This document shows, in pieces, positions 1 through 56,456 of a stretch of 64,000 nt of DNA (positions are counted from its first letter, which is position 1; each line of letters opens with the position of its first letter). The DNA is from Falsiroseomonas frigidaquae (GTDB taxonomy: Bacteria > Pseudomonadota > Alphaproteobacteria > Acetobacterales > Acetobacteraceae): assembly GCF_012163145.1 (NCBI RefSeq), contig NZ_JAAVTX010000008.1, positions 124,001 through 188,000 on the forward strand. The letters are read 5' to 3'. The position numbers and the translations under genes are program-made. The notes under the pieces were generated by a model. It saw nothing but the letters and a program-made list of their open reading frames with translations. It was not told the origin of the DNA and did no database searches.

Positions 1-2287
1 GCGCCTCATCCACCCGCGGATGCTGGCTGGTCGGGCCGATGAACAGCCCGCTGAACAGGTAGGAGAGCGAGGGGTGGTTGTGCCAGAAGCCGACCAGCGA
101 CTTCAGCAGGTCCGGCCGCCGCAGGAAGGGGCTGTCCGTCGGCGTTGCCGCGCCCATCACCATGTGGTTGCCGCCGCCGGTGCCGACATGGCGGCCGTCC
201 AGCATGAATTTCTCGGCTGCCAGCCCGATCTGGCGGGCTTCCTCATACAGCGTCTCGGTCCGCGCGCCGGTCTCGGCCCAGCTTGCGGAGGGGTGGATGT
301 TGACCTCGATCACGCCCGGGTCGGGGGTGACGGAGAAATTCAGCAGGCGCGGATCGTGCGGCGGCAGGTAGCCTTCCAGGAACACGCGGCGCCCGGTCTC
401 CCGCGCCGTGGCCTCGATGGCGGCGACCAGGTCGAGCCAGTCCTGCACTACGGCCAGCGGCGGCAGGAAGATGTGCAGCAGGCCGCCGCGCGGTTCGACG
501 CAGAGCGCGGTGCGGACCACGCCCGGTTCCTCCCTGCCCGGCTCCGGCACCGGCTGCTCCACCACGCGGCCGCGCGCGGGGCCTTCGCGGCGGGGTTGCA
601 GCGGTTCGCGGCGGGCAAAGGGGTCGGGCTCCGGCTCGGCCTCGATGCTGTCCTCGGAGGCCCAGGGCAGGCTGTCCAGCGGCAGCCGGAAGCCGATCGG
701 GCTGTCGCCCGGCACCAGCAGCAATTCGCCGTCGCGGAACGACCAGCGGCCGGATTCCCAGGCGCGATCCGCCCCCACCCCGGCGCGGCGCAGCGGCAGC
801 ACGCTTCCCACCTCTGCCGCCAGCCCCTGGCCGAACAGCCGCGCCAGGCGGGCGCGTTCCAGCGGGTCCTTCAGCTTGGCATCCTCGGCCACGACATTGG
901 CCGGGAGCATCTTTTCCTTCCACAGATAGTAGTGGACATCCTCCCGCGCCGGCATCCGCAGCGCGGCGTCGATGCCCAGCCGCGCGGCCAGTGCGGCCGC
1001 GAAGGCGGCGGCATCGGCGGGCGTCGCGTCGCCGGTATCGTCATCCGAGGCGAGCAGCGCGGGGTCCGTCCAGACCGGCTCGCCATCCGCGCGCCAGTGG
1101 CAATGCAGGCCCCAGCGCGGCAGCGGCTCGCCCGGGTACCATTTGCCCTGGGCGTAGGTCAGCGCGGCACCCGGCGCCCAGAGCGGCTGCAGGCGGCGCA
1201 ACAACCGGCCGGCCAGCTTGCGCTTGGTCGGGCCGAGCGCGTCGGTGTTCCACTCCGCCGCGTCGCGATCCGCCTCCGCCACGAAGGTCGGCTCGCCGCC
1301 CACGGTCAGCCGCACGTCGCCGGCGGTCAGCGCCTGGTCCACGGTGGACCCCAGCGCCATGATCCGCGCCCAATCCTCCTCGGTGTACGGCTTGGTGACG
1401 CGCGGGGATTGCGCGACGCGGCGGACTTCCATGTGGAAGCCGAATTCCGTCTCCGCCTCATCCACCCCGCCGGTGATCGCCGCGGCGGAAGCCGGTTCCG
1501 GCGTCGCCGCCAGCGGGATGTGCCCCTCGCCCGCCAGCAGGCCGGAGGTGGGGTCGAGGCCGATCCAGCCGGCGCCGGGCACATAGACCTCGCACCAGGC
1601 GTGCAGGTCGGTGAAATCGGACGAGGCGCCGACCGGGCCGGTGACCGACTTCACATCCGGCACCAGCTGGATCAGGTAGCCCGAGACGAAGCGCGCGGCG
1701 AAGCCCAGGTGCCGCAGGATCTGCACCAGCAGCCAGCCCGAGTCGCGGCAGGAGCCCTTGCGGTTCGCCAGCACTTCCTCCGGCGTCCAGACGCCGGGCT
1801 CCATCCGGACGATGTAGCCGATCTCGGTGGAGAGCTTCTGGTTGAGGTCCACCACGTAGTTCACCGTGCTCGGTGCCTCGCGGGGGATATCCTTCAGATA
1901 GGCCTCGAGCAGCGGGCCGGGCGCCGAGACGCGGCGGAACGGGGCGAGTTCCTGGGCCAGCACCGGGTCGTAGGTGAAGGGGAAGCTCTCCGCCTCCGGC
2001 TCCACGAAGAAGTCGAAGGGGTTGATCGTGGCCATGTCGGCCAGCAGGTCCACCGTGACGACGAACTCGCGGACCCGTTCGGGGAACACCACGCGGGCGA
2101 TGAAATTGCCCTGCGGGTCCTGCACCCAGTTGAGGAAATGCGGCTTCGGCGAGATGTCCAGCGAATAGGACAGGATCGGCGTGCGGCAATGCGGCGCCGG
2201 CCGCAACCTGATCAACTGCGGCGACATGCCGACCAGGCGATCGTAGCTGTAGCTGGTGCGATGGGTGAGCGCGGCGTGGATGCTCAT
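1..2287 (-). CDS. Transglutaminase-family protein with DUF2126 region (3' end outside window)
   Basis: This is a continuous minus-strand frame with no stop before the window edge, so the C-terminus is missing. It starts at ATG 2287 (MSIHAALTHRTSYSYDR), the usual N-terminal beta domain of bacterial transglutaminase-like proteins. The transglutaminase core follows with the triad visible: Cys180 in KGSCRDSGW, His229 in DLHAWCEVY and Asp245 in GLDPTSG. After about residue 330 comes the long DUF2126-type region with motifs such as GGEPTFV, YPGEPLPRWG and GGGNHMVMG. The family is usually about 1100 residues; 762 are seen here. It is probably a cytoplasmic cysteine peptidase or amidase-like enzyme, often found with circularly permuted ATP-grasp and alpha-E proteins; its substrate is unknown. 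It is divergent from the SDR gene at 2431. Confidence 0.9.
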   Translation of the reverse strand, partial: MSIHAALTHRTSYSYDRLVGMSPQLIRLRPAPHCRTPILSYSLDISPKPHFLNWVQDPQGNFIARVVFPERVREFVVTVDLLADMATINPFDFFVEPEAESFPFTYDPVLAQELAPFRRVSAPGPLLEAYLKDIPREAPSTVNYVVDLNQKLSTEIGYIVRMEPGVWTPEEVLANRKGSCRDSGWLLVQILRHLGFAARFVSGYLIQLVPDVKSVTGPVGASSDFTDLHAWCEVYVPGAGWIGLDPTSGLLAGEGHIPLAATPEPASAAAITGGVDEAETEFGFHMEVRRVAQSPRVTKPYTEEDWARIMALGSTVDQALTAGDVRLTVGGEPTFVAEADRDAAEWNTDALGPTKRKLAGRLLRRLQPLWAPGAALTYAQGKWYPGEPLPRWGLHCHWRADGEPVWTDPALLASDDDTGDATPADAAAFAAALAARLGIDAALRMPAREDVHYYLWKEKMLPANVVAEDAKLKDPLERARLARLFGQGLAAEVGSVLPLRRAGVGADRAWESGRWSFRDGELLLVPGDSPIGFRLPLDSLPWASEDSIEAEPEPDPFARREPLQPRREGPARGRVVEQPVPEPGREEPGVVRTALCVEPRGGLLHIFLPPLAVVQDWLDLVAAIEATARETGRRVFLEGYLPPHDPRLLNFSVTPDPGVIEVNIHPSASWAETGARTETLYEEARQIGLAAEKFMLDGRHVGTGGGNHMVMGAATPTDSPFLRRPDLLKSLVGFWHNHPSLSYLFSGLFIGPTSQHPRVDEA

Positions 2288-2430
2288 GGGGCGTGGGGGT
2301 CCGGCCGGGATTTCGTTAAATGCTATCCCATCGGAATGGAGGGCGCCGCAAGGCCGAGGATGCCCTCGGGTGGACAGGACCGGCCCTGCCGCTCCAACCT
2401 GCCGTACAGATCGGCTTTGAGGGAACGAGA
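2288..2430. promoter_or_regulatory. Divergent intergenic region
   Basis: These 143 bases separate the minus-strand transglutaminase gene from the plus-strand SDR gene and must hold both promoters. I see a GAGGGAACGAG stretch about 1-11 bases before the SDR ATG that can act as its ribosome binding site. No convincing -35/-10 pair or operator is recognisable by eye. Confidence 0.4.
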
Positions 2431-3177
2431 ATGGCACAAAAATATGCACTGGTGACGGGGGCCGGGTCCGGCGTCGGCCGCGCCGCCTCCCTCGCACTGG
2501 CCGAGGATGGCTGGACCGTCGCCCTGCTCGGCCGCCGCCGCGACGCGCTGGAGGAAACGGCGGGTCTGTGCCAGGGCGGCCAGACCCTGGTGGTGCCGGC
2601 CGATGTGACGGACCCGGCGCAGATCGACGCCGCCTTCGCGACGCTCGCAAAAGAGTTCGGCCGGCTGGACCTGCTGTTCAACAATGCCGGCAACAACGTC
2701 CCCGGCACGCCGTTCGAGGAGCTGACGGCGGAACAGTGGTTCAAGGTGGTGAACGTCAACCTGAACGGCGTGTTCCTCTGCGCCCATGCCGCCTTCCGCA
2801 TGATGGCGAAGCAGGACCCGATGGGCGGTCGCATCATCAACAATGGCTCGATCAGCGCGCATGCGCCGCGGCCGGGCAGCGCGCCCTATACCGCCACCAA
2901 GCACGCCGTCACCGGGCTGACCAAATCGATGAACCTCGATGGCCGCCGCTTCGATATCGCGGTCGGCCAGATCGACATCGGCAATGCCGCGACGCCGATG
3001 GCCGAACGCATGGCGAAGGGCGTGCCGCAGGCGGATTGGTCGATCAAGGCGGAGCCGCTGATGAAAGTGGACCATGTCGGCCGCGCCGTGGCGCAGATGG
3101 CCGCCTGGCCGTTGGAGACCAATGTGCTGACCATGACCATCATGGCCAGCAAGATGCCCTTCGTCGGTCGTGGTTAG
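2431..3177 (+). CDS. Short-chain dehydrogenase/reductase (SDR)
   Basis: This is a 248-residue classical SDR. The start is set at ATG 2431 ([16 protein letters not shown]) because the Rossmann TGAGSGVG motif begins at residue 9 and an AGGGAACGAG ribosome site precedes it; upstream in-frame codons would add unrelated residues. NNAG lies near residue 90 and the active site shows Ser and YTATK (YxxxK) around residue 150-160. It is probably a cytoplasmic NAD(P)-dependent alcohol/ketone oxidoreductase. It is followed by a second SDR and glucokinase, which suggests a sugar or polyol pathway, but the substrate cannot be read from the sequence. Confidence 0.88.
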
Positions 3178-3187
3178 AGGGGGCAGG

Positions 3188-3255
3188 CCCATGCGATCGC
3201 TGGAGGGCGCAGGCGCCCGCAGGGCAACGAGCACCGGAAGCGTGAATCGCATGGG
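3188..3255 (+). promoter_or_regulatory. Nested inverted repeat before the second SDR gene
   Basis: Outer arms CCCATGCGAT (3188-3197) and ATCGCATGGG (3246-3255) are perfectly complementary over 10 bases. Inside sits a second perfect hairpin, GGGCGC-AG-GCGCCC (3205-3218). The outer 3' arm runs into the GGGAGAA ribosome binding site of the SDR at 3265. The structure could attenuate or modulate translation of the downstream gene; this is inference from sequence alone. Confidence 0.45.
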
Positions 3256-3264
3256 AGAAAACGC

Positions 3265-4017
3265 ATGAACAAGCTCGACCTGCATGGCCGCGTCGCCGTC
3301 GTCACCGGCGGCGCACGCGGCATCGGCCTGGCCGTCGCACGCCGCATGATCCAGTCCGGCGCCGCCGTCTCGATCTGGGACGCGGACCCGGCCAAGGCGG
3401 AGGAAAGCCGCGCGGCGCTCGCCGCCGACGGCACCGTCACGGCGGAGGTGCTGGACCTGACCGATGAACTCGCGGTGGCCGAGGCCACGGCGAAGACGAT
3501 CAAGGCCCATGGCAAGGTGGATATCCTGGTCAACAACGCGGGCATCACCGGCGGCAACATGCCGGTGGCGGAAATCCCCGTCGCGCAGTGGCGCCGCGTG
3601 GTGGAGGTGAACCTGACGGCGCCGTTCCTGGTCTGCCAGGCGCTGGTGCCGCATCTGGTGGCGAATGGCTGGGGCCGCGTGGTGAATGTCGCCTCGGTCG
3701 CGGGGAAGGAGGGCAATCCCAACGCCGCGCACTACTCCGCCAGCAAGGCCGGCTTGATCGGGCTGACCAAGTCGCTGGCGAAGGAGCTGGCGACGAAGAA
3801 CGTGCTCGTGAACTGCGTCACCCCCGCCGCGGCCAAGACCGATATTTTCAATCAGATGACGGAGGCCCATATCGCCTTCATGCTTTCCAAGATCCCCATG
3901 GGCCGTTTCGTCGAGGTGGAGGAGATCGCCGCCCTGATCTGCTGGCTCTCGACGCCCGATTGTTCCTTCTCCACCGGCGGCGTGTTCGATATCAGCGGCG
4001 GGCGCGCCACCTATTGA
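3265..4017 (+). CDS. Short-chain dehydrogenase/reductase, FabG-like
   Basis: A 250-residue SDR starting at ATG 3265 after GGGAGAAAACGC. The cofactor motif TGGARGIG lies at residues 14-21 and NNAGITGG near residue 92. The catalytic Ser lies in VASVAG and the Tyr/Lys pair in YSASKAG near residue 155. The C-terminus (GGVFDISGGRATY) is the normal SDR substrate-loop end. The sequence resembles the FabG/sugar-dehydrogenase type. Its stop codon overlaps the TTG start of glk (TTGA), so the two are translationally coupled. The role is probably oxidation of a sugar or hydroxy acid feeding central carbon metabolism; the exact substrate is unknown. Confidence 0.88.
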   Translation: MNKLDLHGRVAVVTGGARGIGLAVARRMIQSGAAVSIWDADPAKAEESRAALAADGTVTAEVLDLTDELAVAEATAKTIKAHGKVDILVNNAGITGGNMPVAEIPVAQWRRVVEVNLTAPFLVCQALVPHLVANGWGRVVNVASVAGKEGNPNAAHYSASKAGLIGLTKSLAKELATKNVLVNCVTPAAAKTDIFNQMTEAHIAFMLSKIPMGRFVEVEEIAALICWLSTPDCSFSTGGVFDISGGRATY

Positions 4018-4958
4018 GCGCGTTGCTGGCTGATATCGGCGGCACCAATGCGCGCTTCGCATTGTGGCAGAATGGGCAGGTCACCGATCCGGTGATCCTG
4101 CCAGTGGCGGGCCATGCCACCGCCGAGGACGCGATTGCGGAGGCGCTGCGGCGCCTCGCGCCCGCCACGCCACCGGACAGCGCCGTATTGGCGCTCGCCG
4201 GGCCGGTGCTGGTGGAGCCGGTGCGGCTGACCAATGCCGATTGGGCGCTGTCCAGCACCGCCATCGCGGAGCGCTTCGGCATGCGGCGCGTACGGCTGGT
4301 CAATGATTTCCTCGCGCTGGCGCATTCGCTGCCGCATCTCGGGCAGGATGACCTGCACCGCATCGGTGGCGGCAAGGCGGTGGCGGAGGCGCCGATGCTG
4401 GTGGTCGGCCCTGGCACCGGCCTCGGCGCCGCCGGCCTGGTGCCGGCACCCTCCGGCCCGGTCGCGGTGCCGACCGAGGGTGGCCATATCGGCCTGGCCG
4501 GCGAGACGGCGCGGGAGGATGCGGTGATCGGCGCATTGCGCGCCCGCTGCGGCCGGGCGGGGGCGGAGGAAGCGCTCTCCGGCCGCGGGCTGGTCAATTT
4601 GCACGCCATCGTCGCCGATCTGCAGGGCGTGGCGGCGCCGCCACGCGATGCCGCCGCCATCGTCGCGGCCGCCGGGAAATGCCCGGTGGCGGATGAGGCG
4701 CTGGCGCATTTCCTGGCCTTCCTGGCGGGCTATGCCGGCGACATGGCGCTGGCCTGGGGCGCGCGCGGCGGCGTCTTCATCGCCGGCGGCATCCTGCCGC
4801 GGCTGCTGCCGATGCTCGACGCAACCCGCTTCCGTGAACAATTCGAGGCCAAGCCGCCAATGCGGCACTGGATGGCCGATGTTCCGCTGGCGGTGGTGAC
4901 GCACCCTGCCCCGGCCTTCCTGGGCCTGGCCGCCATCGCGCGGTTCAGCGCGGATTAA
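4014..4958 (+). CDS. glk: Glucokinase
   Basis: Phosphorylates glucose with ATP to glucose-6-phosphate in the cytoplasm. The 314-residue product starts at TTG 4014, overlapping the SDR stop codon by four bases; this start places the phosphate-binding motif ADIGGTNARF at residues 6-15, as expected for bacterial Glk. Other family features are LVNDF near residue 100, GPGTGLGAA near 138, the EGGHIGLA segment near 160 and GGVFIAGGI near 255. Length matches the family (about 320). Its position 140 bases before glgP ties glucose activation to the glycogen operon. A longer upstream frame is open but overlaps the SDR and is unlikely to be used. Confidence 0.93.
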   Translation: MSALLADIGGTNARFALWQNGQVTDPVILPVAGHATAEDAIAEALRRLAPATPPDSAVLALAGPVLVEPVRLTNADWALSSTAIAERFGMRRVRLVNDFLALAHSLPHLGQDDLHRIGGGKAVAEAPMLVVGPGTGLGAAGLVPAPSGPVAVPTEGGHIGLAGETAREDAVIGALRARCGRAGAEEALSGRGLVNLHAIVADLQGVAAPPRDAAAIVAAAGKCPVADEALAHFLAFLAGYAGDMALAWGARGGVFIAGGILPRLLPMLDATRFREQFEAKPPMRHWMADVPLAVVTHPAPAFLGLAAIARFSAD

Positions 4959-5098
4959 CACCCGCCGTCTGCAACTGGCAGGCGAAAGCGGGTGCTCGTT
5001 TTTCATTTGGCGGCTCCCGCGAATTGCTGCAAAGCAGCGTCGTTGACGCGATCGTGCCAACGCCGCGCGATCACGCCTGCTCAAGGAGCCGAGACCCG

Positions 5099-7591
5099 AT
5101 GGATACCCCGACGACGCCAAGCCTCGCCGCCGCGCCACCTCGGTTGCCGGCCGACGATGCCGCCGCGCTGCGCGAGACCATCCTGCACAAGCTGACCTAC
5201 GACCTGGGCAAGAGCCGGCTCGGCGCGCGGGACCGCGACTGGTTCATCGCCACGGCCCTGGCGGTGCGGGACCGGATCGTCGATCGCTGGATCGACCTGA
5301 CGCGGGCCACCTACCAGTCCGGCGCGAAGCAGGTGTACTACCTGAGCCTGGAATTCCTCATCGGCCGGCTGCTGCGTGACAATGTCTGCAACCTGGGCCT
5401 GGTCGGCGCCATCCGCGATGCGCTGGAACCGCTTGGCGTGGACCCGGAGAAGCTGCGGATCGCGGAGCCCGACGCGGCGCTCGGCAATGGTGGCCTCGGC
5501 CGGCTCGCGGCCTGCTTCATGGAGAGCATGGCCTCGCTCGGCATTCCCGCCTTCGGATACGGCATCCGCTATGACCATGGCCTGTTCCGGCAGATCATCC
5601 GCGATGGCTGGCAGCATGAATTCCCCGAGGACTGGCTGAATTTCGGCAACCCCTGGGAGTTCGCCCGGCCCGAAATCTCCCACACCATCGGCTTCGGCGG
5701 CGTGGTGGAGGCGGTGACCGTCTCCGAGGCGCGGGTGAAGCATGTCTGGAAGCCGGGCGAGACCGTGCAGGCGGTGGCCTACGACACCCCCATAGTCGGC
5801 TGGCGCGGCGCGCATGTGAACACGCTGCGGCTCTGGTCGGCGCGCGCCACGGATGCGCTGAAGCTGGAGGCGTTCAACTCCGGCGACCATGTCGGCGCCT
5901 TGAGCGAGAAGGTGCGGGCGGAGAGCATCTCCAAGCTGCTCTATCCCTCGGATGAAAGTCCCGCGGGGCAGGAATTACGGCTGCGGCAGGAATACTTCTT
6001 CTCCTCCGCCGCGCTGCAGGATCTGGTCCGCCGCCACATGCGCGTCTACGGCGACATCCGGTCCCTGCCCGATCGCGTGGCGATCCAGCTGAATGACACG
6101 CACCCGGCCATCGTCGTTGCGGAACTTTTGCGTATCCTGGTCGATCTGCATGACATCGCATGGGACGAGGCCTGGGACATCACGCGCCGCACGATCAGCT
6201 ACACCAACCACACCTTGCTGCCCGAGGCGCTGGAAAGCTGGCCGGTTCCCCTGATGGAGCGGCTGCTGCCGCGCCACATGCAGTTGATCTACCTGATCAA
6301 CGCCTTCCACCTGGATGAGGTGCGCGGCAAGAATCCGGATGACGGGCGGCTGCTTTCCTCTGTCTCCCTGATCGAGGAAGGGCATGGGCGGCGCGTGCGC
6401 ATGGGGCATCTGGCGGTGGTCGGCTCGCACAAGGTCAACGGCGTCTCCGCGCTGCATTCGGACCTGCTGAAGCAGACCGTCTTCGCCGATTTCCACCACC
6501 TGTTCCCCGGGCGGCTGACCAACAAGACCAATGGAATAACCTTCCGGCGCTGGCTGCAGCAGTGCAATCCGGGCCTGACCGGCCTGCTGGTGGAAGCCTG
6601 CGGGGCGGAAGTGCTGGACAACCCGGCGGCGCTGGAGAAGCTGCGGCCGCTGGCCGCCGATGCCGGCTTCCAGCAGAAATTCGCCGCCGTGAAGCGCGCC
6701 AACAAGCAGGCGCTGGCCGCCCTGGTGCGGGACCAGTACCAGCTCAAGATCGACCCGGACGCGCTGTTCGACGTGCAGATCAAGCGCATTCACGAATACA
6801 AGCGGCAGCTGCTGAACGTTATCGAGGCGGTCGCGTTGTATGACGAGATCCGCAGCCAGCCGACCAAGAACTGGACCCCCCGAGTCAAGATCTTCGCCGG
6901 CAAGGCGGCGAGCAGCTACCATCGGGCGAAGCTGATCATCAAGCTGGCACATGACGTGGCCCGCGTGGTGAACAGCGACCCGACGGTGCGCAACCTTCTG
7001 AAGGTGGTGTTCCTGCCGAACTACAATGTTTCCCTGGCCGAGATCATCGTGCCCGCCGCCGACCTGTCCGAGCAGATCAGCACCGCGGGCATGGAGGCAT
7101 CCGGCACCGGCAACATGAAGCTGGCCCTGAACGGCGCGCTGACCATCGGCACGCTGGACGGCGCCAATGTCGAGATCAAGGAACATGTCGGCGACGACAA
7201 CATCTTCATCTTCGGCCTGACGACGGAGCAGGTGGCGAAGCACCGCGCCGAGGGTATCCAGGGCGCGGCCGCCATCGCGAAGTCGCGCCGGCTGCAGGAA
7301 GCGCTGGAGCAGATCGAGGCCGGCGTCTTCTCGCCGGACGACCCGACCCGCTACCGCGACCTGGTCGCGTCGCTGCGTGCCTCCGACTACTTCCTGGTGA
7401 CCGCCGATTTCGACAGCTACTTCGACGCGCAGCGCAGCGTCGATGAGCGCTGGCGCAATCCGGCCGCATGGTGGAAATCCGCCGTGCTCAACACCGCCAA
7501 TGTCGGCTGGTTCTCCTCCGACCGCACCATCGCGGAGTATGCGGAGGAGATCTGGAACGTCCCCGTCAAACGAAGCCCTGCCCACGGATGA
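5099..7591 (+). CDS. glgP: Glycogen phosphorylase
   Basis: Releases glucose-1-phosphate from glycogen ends by phosphorolysis, using pyridoxal phosphate. The 830-residue protein starts at ATG 5099, preceded by AAGGAG (5083-5088) with 10-base spacing; an upstream in-frame codon at 5024 lacks such a site. The PLP lysine is Lys674 in GTGNMK, with the flanking EASGTGNMKLALNGA signature. Also visible are GNGGLGRLAAC near residue 124, QLNDTHPA near 330 and KRIHEYKRQ near 562. Length matches GT35 phosphorylases. It is the first gene of the glg operon; its stop is 13 bases before glgB. Confidence 0.97.
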   Translation: MDTPTTPSLAAAPPRLPADDAAALRETILHKLTYDLGKSRLGARDRDWFIATALAVRDRIVDRWIDLTRATYQSGAKQVYYLSLEFLIGRLLRDNVCNLGLVGAIRDALEPLGVDPEKLRIAEPDAALGNGGLGRLAACFMESMASLGIPAFGYGIRYDHGLFRQIIRDGWQHEFPEDWLNFGNPWEFARPEISHTIGFGGVVEAVTVSEARVKHVWKPGETVQAVAYDTPIVGWRGAHVNTLRLWSARATDALKLEAFNSGDHVGALSEKVRAESISKLLYPSDESPAGQELRLRQEYFFSSAALQDLVRRHMRVYGDIRSLPDRVAIQLNDTHPAIVVAELLRILVDLHDIAWDEAWDITRRTISYTNHTLLPEALESWPVPLMERLLPRHMQLIYLINAFHLDEVRGKNPDDGRLLSSVSLIEEGHGRRVRMGHLAVVGSHKVNGVSALHSDLLKQTVFADFHHLFPGRLTNKTNGITFRRWLQQCNPGLTGLLVEACGAEVLDNPAALEKLRPLAADAGFQQKFAAVKRANKQALAALVRDQYQLKIDPDALFDVQIKRIHEYKRQLLNVIEAVALYDEIRSQPTKNWTPRVKIFAGKAASSYHRAKLIIKLAHDVARVVNSDPTVRNLLKVVFLPNYNVSLAEIIVPAADLSEQISTAGMEASGTGNMKLALNGALTIGTLDGANVEIKEHVGDDNIFIFGLTTEQVAKHRAEGIQGAAAIAKSRRLQEALEQIEAGVFSPDDPTRYRDLVASLRASDYFLVTADFDSYFDAQRSVDERWRNPAAWWKSAVLNTANVGWFSSDRTIAEYAEEIWNVPVKRSPAHG

Positions 7592-50860: not shown

Positions 50861-50926
50861 CACCCGCACTCCATCCGAAGCTGACCATTCGCTGCCGGAC
50901 CATATGGGGGCGGAGAGACAACGCCA

Positions 50927-50977
50927 AGCAGTGACCCGGGCCAAGCAGTGGACCGGACCAGGTAGTGGACCGGGCCA
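50927..50977. repeat. Three imperfect 17-bp tandem repeats
   Basis: Units AGCAGTGACCCGGGCCA (50927-50943), AGCAGTGGACCGGACCA (50944-50960) and GGTAGTGGACCGGGCCA (50961-50977) differ at one to four positions. They lie 67 bases upstream of the SDR gene start on the minus strand and about 100 bases before tRNA-Leu, so they may belong to a promoter region. Confidence 0.8.
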
Positions 50978-51073
50978 AGGCAATGTCACGCCACGGCAAG
51001 AATTCCATCCGACCCCGCTTGACGGAAAACGGAGCCGCCCGTAAATCCCGCCTCACGTCGGAAGACGCCCCTT

Positions 51074-51160
<87 letters not shown>

Positions 51161-51161
51161 C

Positions 51162-51662
51162 CATAGGTTTGCCGAGACGGGTGTAAGCTTGGTGATATGC
51201 GCTGCGGCGCGTCCGCCATGAGCGAGTGCGCGTTGCCAGTGCCATCGCACAGCGAGACTGCCGGGCCGCTTGATCGTTCATAGCGCCGGAACAGGTTCTT
51301 ACGTCGCTGGTCCATGCGCTCGTGTATCAAACGGATTTCCTCCACCAAGACTGAGGAAGCGCGGTATCACGTGACTGGGGGGCGAATCACGCGTCGTGTT
51401 TAGCGACGCCACGGAGGCCACTAGCCGCGCAAGCAGATGTGCACCGCACATATTGAAATTAATAGTTGTCCGATGCTAGGTCAGGTGAGGAAATTTTCAC
51501 TGAGCCGTCGCCGCTCCTGCTCTTTGTGCTGGACGACGTGCACCAAGCAGAGCCTATGGGCAGCGCGAACGAGGGGCGCCAACTTGGATGTATGCCGAGG
51601 AAAATTCCAGCTCTAGAACACCCTTAGCAGCATTACGCGTAGAATGTCCTGCTACGCCAAAT
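51162..51662. other. Non-coding stretch inside the island (left part)
   Basis: About 500 bases with no convincing gene. A minus-strand frame beginning near 51348 has a GGAGGAAATCC-like start but soon runs through the complement of tRNA-Leu, which is an artefact. Whether the first 60 residues are a decayed coding fragment cannot be decided. Confidence 0.5.
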
Positions 51663-52550
51663 TCAGGGTGAGGTGGACTTGGCACTCGGAATCTTGAGGC
51701 CCCCGATAGCCCTTGAGGGATGACGCAACAAGACGTTACGAGATGACGATGGCCGATCGGCTTTGATGTCGGACAGACTCCCGTCATGTTCCGAAAGCCA
51801 GTAGGCATCATACCCGAGCGGCGTGACAAGACCCGTTACCGAGGCCAAGATCTCGGGTGTCAGAATTTCAGCTAAGATCGTAGGCTTGTGCATGTTGATC
51901 GATTTAATCCCTCCGCGGATAACATGAAATTCATGCTCTTCCACGTCAATTTTCATCAGGTCGACGGGCCGGCCCTGAAGAAAATTATCAATGCTAATTT
52001 TGTTAATTCGCTTCACGGCGACAGATTTTCCGCGATCAACAACGGACGCACCGGTGGACATCAGCCGGGGACCGCTCCGGATATTCATGTCGATCCAGCC
52101 CTCACCATCTGAAACTGCGGCCAAGTGAGGGCGCACCTTGAAGAATCTGTTCGCTTGGGCGTTGACGAACAGACGCGCAAAAATATGATCTATGGCTTCG
52201 AAAGCATCAATTTCCGCTTTTGGATTAGACAGCGCCGCAACCAGCGAAAACAACCCAACATGGGCCCCAATATCAAGGATGGCCGAGGATTCTTTGCACA
52301 ACAATGACCAAGCGCGAAGTGTATGTTCCTCGTAGTCGAAGGCTCCATTCCAGTTTGCGCAGTAGGCGAACACCTCGTCGTTATTGCAAAACATAACGAA
52401 AGGCGCCACATACTTGGTTACGACCTCTGCGTAGCCGTAGAAAGGATAGTTCTTTCGGCGCTCCGAAAATTCCTTCGTTTCCATAGGCCCCAACGCCTTT
52501 GCATCAGCGCTGATCCTAGCTCCGAATTCTTCGAGCGCCTCTAAGTTCAT
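51663..52550 (-). CDS. FkbM-family methyltransferase
   Basis: 295 residues from ATG 52550 (MNLEALEEFGARISADAK). SAM-binding motif I is AILDIGAHVGLFSLVAA at residues 90-106, and the FkbM signature VDLMKIDVEEHEFHVIRGG lies near residue 200. FkbM proteins O-methylate sugars, polyketides or glycolipids. Codon use is clearly more AT-rich than neighbours (for example AAA, ATT and TTC-rich stretches), and the gene lies inside the tRNA-Leu island, so it was probably acquired by transfer. It has its own weak upstream ribosome site (GGCGAAAACC). Confidence 0.85.
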   Translation of the reverse strand: MNLEALEEFGARISADAKALGPMETKEFSERRKNYPFYGYAEVVTKYVAPFVMFCNNDEVFAYCANWNGAFDYEEHTLRAWSLLCKESSAILDIGAHVGLFSLVAALSNPKAEIDAFEAIDHIFARLFVNAQANRFFKVRPHLAAVSDGEGWIDMNIRSGPRLMSTGASVVDRGKSVAVKRINKISIDNFLQGRPVDLMKIDVEEHEFHVIRGGIKSINMHKPTILAEILTPEILASVTGLVTPLGYDAYWLSEHDGSLSDIKADRPSSSRNVLLRHPSRAIGGLKIPSAKSTSP

Positions 52551-53139
52551 GGTTTTCGCCTTGGATTGTCGGATTTAGTTACTTCTTCGCACACACCCGA
52601 TTTAAAGTAAAGTTGGATAGCAGCAGATCATCTTCTGTGCGCTTCAAGGATCGTGCAAGGCCGGAGCCCTCCTCTTCCCATGAGACTATGACGCCTCCCC
52701 GTCGGCTTATGTTCGGCACGCGCCGCGTCGCGCCGCAAGATGCGGGCCGGCGTTGAGGAAGGCGATGAAGCGGCACTCACCCGACTCGCTCCGATCGCAG
52801 AGACCCGTCAGCCCTGCCCTCGGTTCAACTGGCGTATGCGAAGGTTCGCCCAACAGCAGGCCGGCGGGCTTCGGGGTGCTGCCGACGCGGATGGGCGAGC
52901 CCTGCCCGCCGCAACTACATTGCCTGGCCCGGCACCCTGGTTTACTAGGGCCCAGAGAATGGCACGGGCTTGGTGCAATGGCATCCGAACCTGGGTAGTT
53001 TTCGCTCCGCCTCTGTAATCGTCGCTCATGGTTTTTCAGATGCTTAAGGCGGTAGCTGTTGCGAAAAGCTGCCTTTCCTGGGCACCACTCCATCGGGGTC
53101 ACAACGGCGGTGGGTTCCACCCTTTTCACGAAGGCCGCC
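52551..53139. other. Non-coding stretch with right att copy
   Basis: About 590 bases without a recognisable gene. It starts AT-rich next to the FkbM gene and becomes GC-rich after about 52680. Short open frames exist on both strands between 52707 and 53029 but show no family motif or codon bias. It holds the right att repeat (53072-53088) and must contain the promoter of the RNase D-like gene. Confidence 0.5.
53072..53088 (+). other. Attachment-site repeat, right copy
   Basis: CCTTTCCTGGGCACCAC, identical to 51145-51161 at the end of tRNA-Leu. Flanking bases differ on both sides, so it is not simply a second tRNA gene. It marks the right edge of the inferred island, 51 bases before the RNase D-like start. 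Confidence 0.8.
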
Positions 53140-53763
53140 GTGATCCGACTGCATCGGCATGACTTGCCGGACGACCTGAACTTCGGGTCCTCCGTCGCCA
53201 TCGATACCGAAACAATGGGCCTCGACCCGCGGCGCGACCGGCTTTGCCTGGTGCAGCTCTCCGCAGGCGACGGAACCGCGCATTGCGTGCAGATCCTGCC
53301 CGACCGGCTTGGTGGCCGCGGCGCGGATTGCCCCAACCTGAAGCGCCTGCTGGCCGACCCGGCGGTGCTGAAGATCTTCCACTTTGCCCGCTTCGACGTC
53401 GCCGCGCTGTACAATGCGCTGGGCGTGGTGGTGGCGCCCGTGGTCTGCACCAAGATCGCCTCCAAGCTGGTCCGCACCTACACGGACCGTCACGGCCTGA
53501 AGGACCTGTGCCGCGACCTGCTGGGCGTCGACCTGTCCAAGCAGCAGCAATCCAGCGACTGGGGCCAGGCCGAGCTGACGCCGGAGCAGCTGACCTATGC
53601 GGCGTCCGACGTGCTGCATCTGCATGCGCTCTGGGCGCGGCTGAAGGCGCTGCTGGAGCGCGAGGGGCGGCTGGACATCGCCCAGGCCTGCTACCACTTC
53701 CTGCCCATGCGCGGTCGGTTGGACCTGCTGGGCTATGAGGACCCGGACATCTTCGCGCATTGA
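53140..53763 (+). CDS. rnd: Ribonuclease D-like 3'-5' exonuclease
   Basis: 207 residues from GTG 53140 (read MIRLHRHDLPDDL), just downstream of AAGGCC; the open frame continues upstream across the att site but is not used in the family. DEDDy exonuclease motifs: Exo I AIDTETMGL with Asp22 and Glu24, Exo II FHFARFDVAAL near residue 80, and Exo III YAASDVLHLHAL near 149. This is the short RNase D form, without HRDC domains, common in alphaproteobacteria; it trims tRNA or other RNA 3' ends. The gene sits directly beside the island edge. Confidence 0.9.
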   Translation: MIRLHRHDLPDDLNFGSSVAIDTETMGLDPRRDRLCLVQLSAGDGTAHCVQILPDRLGGRGADCPNLKRLLADPAVLKIFHFARFDVAALYNALGVVVAPVVCTKIASKLVRTYTDRHGLKDLCRDLLGVDLSKQQQSSDWGQAELTPEQLTYAASDVLHLHALWARLKALLEREGRLDIAQACYHFLPMRGRLDLLGYEDPDIFAH

Positions 53764-54628: not shown

Positions 54629-55614
54629 GGCGCACCGGTCTTGCCCTCGCGGCACTGCTGCTGGCGCTTCCTGTACAGGCGCAGAACCTGGACCTGAACC
54701 AGGGCGGGCCGGTGGAAATCACCGCCAATGACGGCATCGAGTGGCGCCAGCAGGAACAGGTGGTGATCGCCCGCGGCCAGGCGCGCGCGGTGCGGGACGG
54801 CGTGACGGTGGATGCGGACCGGCTGATCGCACGCTATCGCCCGCGCGGCGGCGCCAACGCCCCGGCGCCCGAGCCCGGCGGCAGCCCGCTATCCGGCGGC
54901 GAGATCTGGCGGCTGGAGGCTGAGGGCAGTGTCCGCGTCACCTCCACCACCGAACGCGCGGAAGGTGAGCGTGCGGTCTATGACATGGACCAGGCGGTGA
55001 TGGTGCTGTCCGGCCGCGGTCTGTCGCTGACCACGCCGGACCAGCGCATCACCGCGCGCGACAGCCTGGAATACTGGCCGCAGCGCCGCATGGCGGTGGC
55101 CCGGGGTGGCGCCGTCGTGGTCAGTTCGGATGGCAGGCAGATCGCCGCCGATACGCTTGTCGCCTATTTCCTCGACGCGCCGGCGGAAGGCGCGCCCACG
55201 GCCGCACCCGCACCGGCACCCGCACGCCCCGCATCGCCGCCGGTGGCCGGCCTGCCGGCTGCGAATGAAAGCAGCCGCATCGAACGCGTCGAAGCCTATG
55301 GCGGCGTCGAGATCCGCTCCGCCGAGGAAGTCGTGCGTGGCGAACGTGGCATGTACAGCCCGCAGACCGGCCTCGCGCGGCTGGTCGGCGGCGTCCGCAT
55401 CACCCGTGGGGAGAACCAGTTGAACGGCCAGGAAGCCATCGTGAATCTGCGAACCGGCGTGTCCCGGCTGATCTCCGCCCCCGGCACGCGCGTGCAGGGG
55501 CTGGTGGTGCCGGGGCAGCAGCAGCCGGGCCAGGCCACGGTGCCCCCGGCCCAGCGGCCCGCGCCGCGCACCCCCGCCCCGCCGCCGGCACGGCGCCCGA
55601 GCGCAACACCATGA
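54625..55614 (+). CDS. lptA: LPS export periplasmic protein LptA
   Basis: Periplasmic bridge protein for LPS transport to the outer membrane. 329 residues from ATG 54625 with a signal peptide (TGLALAALLLALPVQAQ). The OstA-like beta-jellyroll is seen as PVEITANDGIEWRQQEQVVIARGQA near residues 32-56, and a second half with VRITRGENQLNGQEAIVNL near 260. A long Pro/Ala-rich C-terminus (TPAPPPARRPSATP) is unusual. It is longer than enteric LptA (185). Its stop overlaps the first ATG of lptB. Confidence 0.88.
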   Translation: MRRTGLALAALLLALPVQAQNLDLNQGGPVEITANDGIEWRQQEQVVIARGQARAVRDGVTVDADRLIARYRPRGGANAPAPEPGGSPLSGGEIWRLEAEGSVRVTSTTERAEGERAVYDMDQAVMVLSGRGLSLTTPDQRITARDSLEYWPQRRMAVARGGAVVVSSDGRQIAADTLVAYFLDAPAEGAPTAAPAPAPARPASPPVAGLPAANESSRIERVEAYGGVEIRSAEEVVRGERGMYSPQTGLARLVGGVRITRGENQLNGQEAIVNLRTGVSRLISAPGTRVQGLVVPGQQQPGQATVPPAQRPAPRTPAPPPARRPSATP

Positions 55615-55682
55615 GCGCGCCAGGGCGCGACACCATGAGCTCGCCAGGGCGCGACACCATGAGCTCGCCAGGGCGCGACACC
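55611..55682 (+). repeat. 24-bp tandem repeat at the lptB start codon
   Basis: Three units start at 55611, 55635 and 55659, each beginning with ATG and ending GGGCGCGACACC; a fourth ATG follows at 55683. Each unit encodes MS(A/S)PGRDT, so four in-frame start codons stand in a row, and the first overlaps the lptA stop (ATGA). Confidence 0.95.
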
Positions 55683-56456
55683 ATGAGCGGCACCGGCGAC
55701 CCGCGCCAGCCGCCGATCCGGCTGGCCGCGCAGAATGCCGGGCTGGTCGCGACCGGCCTCGGCAAGCGCTACAAGAAGCGTCCGGTGGTGCGGAACGTCT
55801 CGCTGAACCTGCGGCGTGGCGAGGCGGTGGGGCTGCTCGGCCCGAATGGCGCCGGCAAGACCACCACCTTCTACATGATCACCGGCCTGGTGCAGCCCGA
55901 TGAGGGCACCGTCACCATGGACGGCCACGACGTGACCTACCTGCCGATGTACCGCCGCGCCCGCCTCGGCCTCGGCTACCTGCCGCAGGAGGCCTCGATC
56001 TTCCGCGGCCTGTCAGTGGAGGACAATATCCGCGCGGCGCTGGAGGTGGTGGAGCCGGTGCGCGACCGGCGGGAGCAGATGCTGGACAGCCTGCTGGCCG
56101 AGTTCGGCATCGCGCATCTGCGCCGCGCGCCCGCACTGGCCCTTTCGGGCGGCGAACGCCGGCGTTGCGAGATCGCCCGCGCGCTGGCCACCCAGCCCAG
56201 CTACATCCTGCTGGACGAGCCGCTGGCCGGCATCGACCCGATCGCGGTGGGAGAGATCCGCGATTTGGTGAAGCACCTGAAGGATCGCGGCCTCGGCGTG
56301 CTGATCACCGACCACAATGTGCGTGAGACGCTGGAGATCATCGACCGCGCCTACATCCTGCACGACGGCCAGGTGCTGATGGAGGGCAACCCGCGCGACA
56401 TCGTCGCGCATGAGGGTGTGCGGCGTGTCTATCTCGGCGAAAGATTCTCGCTCTAG
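55611..56456 (+). CDS. lptB: LPS export ABC transporter ATP-binding protein LptB
   Basis: Cytoplasmic ATPase that powers LPS extraction through LptFG. Depending on which of four in-frame ATGs is used (55611, 55635, 55659, 55683), it has 281, 273, 265 or 257 residues. The ABC core has Walker A GPNGAGKTTT, Q-loop region GYLPQEASIFR, signature ALSGGERRRCEIA, Walker B YILLDEPLAGID and the switch His in ITDHNVRETLEI. The repeated MSxPGRDT head is not part of the fold; the core begins at about LAAQNAGLVATGL. Confidence 0.95.
   Translation: MSAPGRDTMSSPGRDTMSSPGRDTMSGTGDPRQPPIRLAAQNAGLVATGLGKRYKKRPVVRNVSLNLRRGEAVGLLGPNGAGKTTTFYMITGLVQPDEGTVTMDGHDVTYLPMYRRARLGLGYLPQEASIFRGLSVEDNIRAALEVVEPVRDRREQMLDSLLAEFGIAHLRRAPALALSGGERRRCEIARALATQPSYILLDEPLAGIDPIAVGEIRDLVKHLKDRGLGVLITDHNVRETLEIIDRAYILHDGQVLMEGNPRDIVAHEGVRRVYLGERFSL

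Follow-up and report, generated by a model that had tools for sequence, protein, structure and literature searches.

A 1.9 kb AT-rich island separates tRNA-Leu(CAG) from the ribonuclease D-type gene rnd in Falsiroseomonas frigidaquae, and it is probably what a deletion left of a temperate phage, with the att ends and one cargo gene retained. The island was studied within a stretch of 64,000 nucleotides, here called the window, to which all coordinates refer unless stated otherwise. We infer phage descent from the ends of the island, and the expression "remnant of a phage" is used here in that sense and not as a claim of membership in a phage group.

The island is bounded by an exact 17-bp direct repeat, CCTTTCCTGGGCACCAC, at positions 51145-51161 and 53072-53088, with zero mismatches and the copies 1927 bp apart. 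A genome-wide search of all 6,082,652 bases returned these two copies only. Thus, the exact att duplication that the original prediction had placed at the 3' end of tRNA-Leu(CAG) was verified at both positions, and the genome holds no third copy. The first copy, the attL core (51145..51161, + strand), is composed of the 3' strand of the T-stem, the 3' acceptor strand, the CCA end and one extra base. It thereby covers the end of the insertion target, the tRNA-Leu(CAG) gene at 51074..51160 (+ strand; ARAGORN; Rfam RF00005, 55.3 bits), which has been kept whole. The second copy is the attR core (53072..53088, + strand). The span of 51145..53088 first given for the feature is therefore right as to the repeat ends, but the target tRNA gene starts earlier, at 51074. 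Downstream of the attR core lies the displaced neighbour rnd (53110..53763, + strand), which encodes a ribonuclease D-type 3'-5' exonuclease (Pfam DNA_pol_A_exo1, E=1.6e-37); its GTG start was inferred by alignment with relatives that have an empty site.

The G+C content of the island is 0.554, as compared to 0.701 in the rest of the window, which agrees with the prediction that the DNA between the repeats is AT-richer than its surroundings. Within the island, G+C is 0.573 in the left non-coding stretch (51162..51662, unstranded), 0.516 in the fkbM gene and 0.601 in the right non-coding stretch (52551..53071, unstranded). Approximately 500 bases on either side of fkbM, or about 1 kb of the 1.9 kb, are thus without a recognised gene. 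A total of 59 stop-to-stop frames of at least 25 aa overlap the island. Ten of these, taken from the non-coding parts, gave no Pfam match at E≤1, and nine frames from the non-coding parts gave a single match to PHROGs, at E=0.29. Two frames opening with ATG, GTG or TTG (51554-51829 and 52579-52776) had no Pfam match at E≤0.001. No integrase, whole or broken, and no phage structural or replication gene was recognised by Pfam and PHROGs in the island pieces scanned, including the right non-coding stretch, which is the side where the related elements G346 and L165 carry their integrase gene; the 13 PF00589 loci of the genome are all outside the window. Satellite-type integrase, replication or helper-interference genes were likewise not found, and the FkbM-family methyltransferase is the sole gene recognised in the island. 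Both the lack of an integrase and the restriction to one recognisable gene had been read correctly from the sequence. Two tandem arrays were observed elsewhere in the window: 3.4 copies of a 17-base unit with 82% matches at 50923-50979, before an epimerase-like gene, and four 24-base units with 93% matches at 55593-55689, spanning the start of a gene for an ABC transporter that by eye is LptB-like. The latter array would give a repeated N-terminal peptide, provided that the first ATG is used.

Comparison with relatives confirmed the empty site that had been predicted for related strains. The rnd gene directly follows tRNA-Leu in 11 of 15 same-genus relatives, with the first aligned rnd base at -25 to +39 bases from the tRNA end, and a direct tRNA-rnd junction was also found at 26 of 28 further family loci examined, the remaining two being a contig edge and a locus without rnd nearby. 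Left out of these counts were the second tRNA of G020 (L012, no rnd), an empty locus of G018 (L013), two loci of other families with rnd adjacent (L017, L022) and repeats of G013 and G009 (L087, L088). When the two flanks of the island were joined in silico, they aligned through the tRNA-Leu-rnd junction of seven relatives. The island itself is absent from all 15 other genomes of the genus (present in 1 of 16), a finding opposite to the case in which all close relatives share it at the same place. Beyond matches of 28-56 bases, it was also not found in the 397 other genomes among the 398 of the family, with two candidate places scored per genome. The 16-base core occurs in 94 family genomes, 80 of them outside the genus, and each of the other genus genomes holds the tRNA-end sequence once, which argues against the repeat being an ordinary terminator element.

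These results bear on the explanation that there was no site-specific insertion at all, the repeat being a chance or terminator-like one and the AT-rich DNA having arrived by ordinary recombination. AT-rich genes can reach tRNA loci through homologous recombination, which counts for such an origin. However, the repeat is exact, unique in the genome and located at the tRNA 3' end, the displaced copy sits where the tRNA end of the relatives meets rnd, the repeat begins at the same base in the window and in the elements G346 and G004 described below, and the empty-site comparison contradicts this explanation, which we therefore regard as extremely unlikely. A further candidate, the island as a decayed mosaic of host genes, was rejected. 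Short DNA matches of 28-56 bases were found in 13 other family genomes, at island positions 1537-1604 and 1696-1745 and once at 777-813 inside fkbM; among the matches listed, several sit in genes read by eye as gyrB and others elsewhere. The matches at 1537-1604 and 1696-1745 were judged to be chance because both positions fall in the GC-rich part of the island. The best non-self match of the island in its own genome had E=0.018.

The four same-genus relatives without an empty site comprise G004, which carries an element, and G013, G014 and G006, which have other genes between tRNA-Leu and rnd. In the latter three (L023, L025, L026) a gene that by eye resembles a membrane diguanylate cyclase of MASE1-GGDEF type was observed between the two, in G014 together with a sensor-kinase-like gene, and no second exact core was present in the stretches fetched. 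Additional copies of the core were seen in other settings: in G263, G188 and G132 (L109, L110, L111; one genus) tandem tRNA-Leu(CAG) genes place two cores at a distance of 152-153 bases, G020 carries on another contig than its rnd locus a second tRNA-Leu(CAG)-like gene (L027:1505-1592) that is altered but identical at the 3' end, and in G292 the second copy lies away from any tRNA and may be due to chance. In most relatives examined rnd begins soon after tRNA-Leu(CAG), and the two genes may share a transcript; the island now parts them by 1.9 kb. The rnd product trims tRNA 3' ends in other bacteria.

Larger elements that use the same core were found in two other genomes and among viral sequences. 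G346, which belongs to another genus, has two copies of the core 38.8 kb apart, one at the tRNA end and one immediately ahead of rnd. A tyrosine integrase gene (PF00589, E=2.8e-17; PHROG 1, E=5.4e-45) adjoins the rnd-side core, its ATG being 141 bases from this attR core, and is followed by a gene for a terminase small subunit (PHROG 309, E=5.6e-49). In the prophage-like element of G004, the tRNA is near a contig end and the second core is on another contig, where it is followed by DNA sharing 83% identity over 2004 bases with the region next to the tRNA in G006. The G004 element contains an endolysin gene (GH108) at the tRNA-side end, a methyltransferase gene and an RgpF-like gene; an integrase was not found in the parts of the element read. 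An open frame of 2615 codons, by eye a repetitive surface protein, was also observed in this element (C33:3653-11497, minus strand; L114/L108). The core was further found in 18 IMG/VR viral stretches, where six matches are the ends of phage-borne tRNA genes, two (L165, L171) are beside a match to one of 13 integrase queries, which were 12 of the 13 PF00589 loci of the island's own genome (L030 missing) and the integrase of G346, and ten are neither. L165 is a contig of 49.5 kb, in which the integrase starts 148 bases from the core and is 51% identical to that of G346, with an endolysin gene on the opposite side of the core. L171 has a different integrase beside the same core, which also matches PHROG 1. 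The att core of the island is identical over 16 bp to the cores of L165 and G346. Since the core is shared by no fewer than three further elements (G346, G004 and L165), site-specific insertion targeted to the tRNA, as originally proposed and as the empty sites indicate, is well supported.

Compared with those parts of the G346 and G004 elements that had been retrieved, the island pieces gave no DNA match at 0.01, and the four protein matches at E≤0.05, of which two were to G346 and the best had E=0.006, were not convincing. Since neither a phage gene nor an integrase fragment was recognised in the island, phage descent rests on the core and the arm sites considered below. The company that the core keeps also bears on the possibility that the island descends from an integrative conjugative or mobilizable element, and would then be a true CIME, or from another kind of tRNA island. 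Classical CIMEs are 1.2-13 kb long and carry cargo and att sites without recombination genes (PMC7563491), which the size and content of the island fit. FkbM genes are also carried on plasmids (42 records), and the second type of integrase beside the core in L171 would suit such an origin too. However, G346, G004 and L165 carry phage genes, either terminase or endolysin, and descent from a conjugative or mobilizable element consequently seems very unlikely to us, phage descent being the reading that we prefer.

Relatives of the G346 integrase at E≤1e-20 are present in 37 of 398 family genomes. Among the 11 G346-type integrase loci read (L128-L138), the core is present only at the locus of G346 itself, and three of the loci adjoin other tRNAs, namely tRNA-Glu, tRNA-Val and tRNA-Arg. 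Relatives of the L165 integrase were found at 46 viral loci, and of these the contig of L165 alone is among the 18 core matches. Thus, the G346/L165 integrase clade is not tied to tRNA-Leu(CAG). Among the matches listed, the nearest named records to integrases of this type are the Pseudomonas phages Lodos and Turba, at 44%.

A search of the island's own genome for an integrase with a matching core, as had been suggested at the outset, was carried out with the G346 integrase. None of the 13 PF00589 loci matched it at E≤1e-3, and a helper integrase in the own genome was rejected on this basis; nor was there a match at E≤1e-20 among the best 5 of 31 candidates. The genome may hold a weaker relative. 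Two of its PF00589 loci adjoin tRNA-Gly CCC and tRNA-Ser GGA, and one lies about 3.6 kb from tRNA-Pro.

Both ends of the island contain a pair of short repeats that may be arm-type sites of the lost integrase. The left pair, GGGTGTAAGCT and TGGTGATATGC (51179..51200, + strand), has half-sites 11 bp apart and an offset of +18 from the CCA end. The right pair, TGGCACGGGCT and TGGTGCAATGG (52960..52981, + strand), is located inside the island, 112 bases before the attR core. A corresponding pair, TGGTGCAATCG and TGGTGCAATGG, also 11 bases apart, is present upstream of the integrase gene in L165. The offset of the right pair from the start of the core is -112 in the island, -112 in L165 and -111 in G346, and the 11-mer TGGTGCAATGG is common to the island and L165 at the same offset. 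On the tRNA side, repeats were found at +34 in L165 (10-base spacing) and at +31 in G346, as compared to +18 for the island pair; the right arm of G004 has other repeats. Pairs of TGGTGYAA-like half-sites 10-11 bases apart were also observed upstream of other integrases of the clade (L129, L131, L132, L134, L135, L185 and others, in addition to L165), and it is possible, judging from the sequences, that such pairs mark the arm-type sites of this clade. By eye, the four half-sites of the island agree with TGGTGYAA at 8, 7, 6 and 4 of 8 positions. In the excerpts of papers retrieved for the half-site together with integrase or att, none was seen to concern it.

The island pairs were scored with a matrix built from eight pairs of other elements, with nothing from the window included. 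Of 127,958 places in the window, the left pair ranked first and the right pair fifth. When L165 was left out of the matrix, the ranks were 2 and 15, with a simulated chance of 1.0% (window background). Without both L165 and G346, the left pair was still first or second, and the right pair ranked 46th with the window background and 17th with the island background, the simulated chance being 1.2% and 0.08%, respectively. With all eight pairs in the matrix, simulated ends of island composition equalled the pairs in 0.1% of 4000 cases with the window background and in none with the island background. In a simpler test with a single consensus, the right and left arm were equalled by 2.5% and 2.2% of the arms after resampling, and by 1.6% of window pieces taken at random. 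The matrix was derived from 42 rows of 57 loci, from which seven contig-edge artefacts were dropped (L186, L187, L188, L189, L191, L200, L202); eight clear pairs with 11-bp spacing were picked by eye from the remaining 35 rows, and duplicates (L190, L192), pairs with 10-bp spacing (L130, L134, L135), pairs that differed in sequence and rows in which no pair stood out were excluded. The island pairs are here called candidate sites, given the post hoc nature of the comparison and the selection of the eight pairs by eye.

The cargo gene (51663..52550, minus strand) is an open frame of 295 aa. The protein matched Pfam PF05050 (Methyltransf_21; E=3e-12, 47.4 bits, cut-off 22.7), NCBIfam TIGR01444 (E=1e-19, 71.4 bits, cut-off 37.7) and the phage family PHROG 8156 (E=3.8e-24, 86 bits), confirming the earlier reading of it as an FkbM methyltransferase. 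That PHROG 8156 outscores NCBIfam (71 bits) and Pfam (47 bits) counts weakly toward a phage origin. An alignment with seven partial relatives has 15 invariant columns, including D93, G95, G99, K200, D202, E204 and E207; these columns are common to the relatives by construction of the count. The relatives show at most 37% identity among the matches listed, no match to PDB sequences was found at 0.01, and a PADLOC search for defence systems gave no FkbM match. From its family, we infer that the enzyme would methylate a surface glycan and alter the recognition of the cell. In Serratia symbiotica, two clones with mutations in an FkbM gene were reported among other clones mutated in LPS genes, and in the authors' view these mutations likely confer phage resistance (PMC12505973). 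A table of Sinorhizobium prophage cargo has one FkbM entry (PMC12429752).

Taken together, the data suggest the following course of events. A temperate phage would have integrated at the 3' end of tRNA-Leu(CAG) by means of a tyrosine recombinase, which would belong to the G346/L165 clade of PHROG 1 integrases or bind the same kind of sites. The tRNA would have stayed whole because a copy of its last 16-17 bases came with the phage, the displaced copy landing before rnd. A later deletion would then have removed the integrase and the remaining phage genes, leaving attL with its arm, the open fkbM gene that the phage had introduced as cargo, and attR with its arm. Going by the layout of G346 and L165, the start of the lost integrase gene would have been about 30-36 bases deeper in the island than the right arm pair. 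The cargo gene may have been kept for its usefulness or by chance.

The same ends would also serve a non-autonomous satellite or cassette, consisting of the attL arm, the cargo gene and the attR arm, that moves with an integrase provided in trans by a helper phage. This arrangement would fit the two undamaged, identical cores, the arm-like pairs persisting at both ends, the open reading frame of the cargo gene and the existence of at least one viral contig in which an integrase gene adjoins the core. However, one genome among 16 of the genus, and one among 398 of the family, was found to carry the island (two candidate places scored per family genome), no integrase of the matching clade was seen in the own genome (13 PF00589 loci; best 5 of 31 candidates), and the half-sites are imperfect. 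We consider a satellite unlikely and favour the phage remnant on account of the single copy in a single genome, the failure to find a clade integrase in the genome, the imperfect half-sites and the approximately 1 kb of DNA in which no gene was recognised.

Integrase-less islands that keep their att sites are already known, and the 1.9 kb island adds to that kind. Tycheposons are likewise targeted to tRNA genes, and such elements can be mostly cargo. The island resembles G346 and L165 in that its core is the end of tRNA-Leu(CAG) and that an 11-bp-spaced pair is found on the integrase side at a distance of 111-112 bases from the core, but it differs from these in having no integrase, terminase or structural gene. 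The CIME criterion of retained att sites with recombination and transfer genes lost fits the island, which has kept its cores and has FkbM as the only recognised gene, and its 1.9 kb falls within the CIME size range. CIMEs, however, derive by definition from ICEs or IMEs, while the other users of this core that were read carry phage genes, and the CIMEs described in the excerpts of that source are in tandem with other elements, of which none was seen here (PMC7563491). As such descent is not established here, the island is not classed among the CIMEs. The ssrA islands of Dehalococcoides, 15 of which have no integration module, are alike in using an RNA gene as the site, in carrying cargo and in partly lacking the integration module, but they target tmRNA and have serine-recombinase modules, as opposed to tRNA-Leu and a presumed tyrosine integrase in the present case (PMC3146451). 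No description of this locus appears in the excerpts seen of the literature on FkbM and tRNA islands, CIMEs, tycheposons, phage resistance and arm-type sites.

A repeat is often the sole basis on which islands without an integrase are proposed. In the present case, the empty site, the elements that share the core, the viral contig and the arm candidates at matching offsets tie a scrap of 1.9 kb to a phage integrase clade, and the use of arm-type sites as a pointer to a missing integrase could be extended to other orphan islands. As to cargo, a region of about 597-6620 in G346 (L106) was observed to contain PseB and PseC genes over the curated cut-offs, a NeuB/PseI-like gene below the cut-offs and a frame that combines NeuB and cytidylyltransferase domains. 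A phage-type element at tRNA-Leu(CAG) thus encodes some steps of a pseudaminic-acid-type pathway. Each of the three occupied sites read (window, G346 and G004) has a gene likely to alter the cell surface. With three cases, and with most of the other genes in G346 and G004 unclassified, no rule is claimed from this pattern. There is a small chance that the 1.9 kb unit is still mobile, as a minimal one-gene cassette with a working core and arm sites at both ends that is moved in trans by phages of the G346/L165 type. If so, tRNA-Leu(CAG) would be a dock for surface-glycan genes in this family, on full phages and integrase-free cassettes alike, with the pseudaminic-acid-type genes of G346 and the RgpF-like and methyltransferase genes of G004 as the cargo on full phages.
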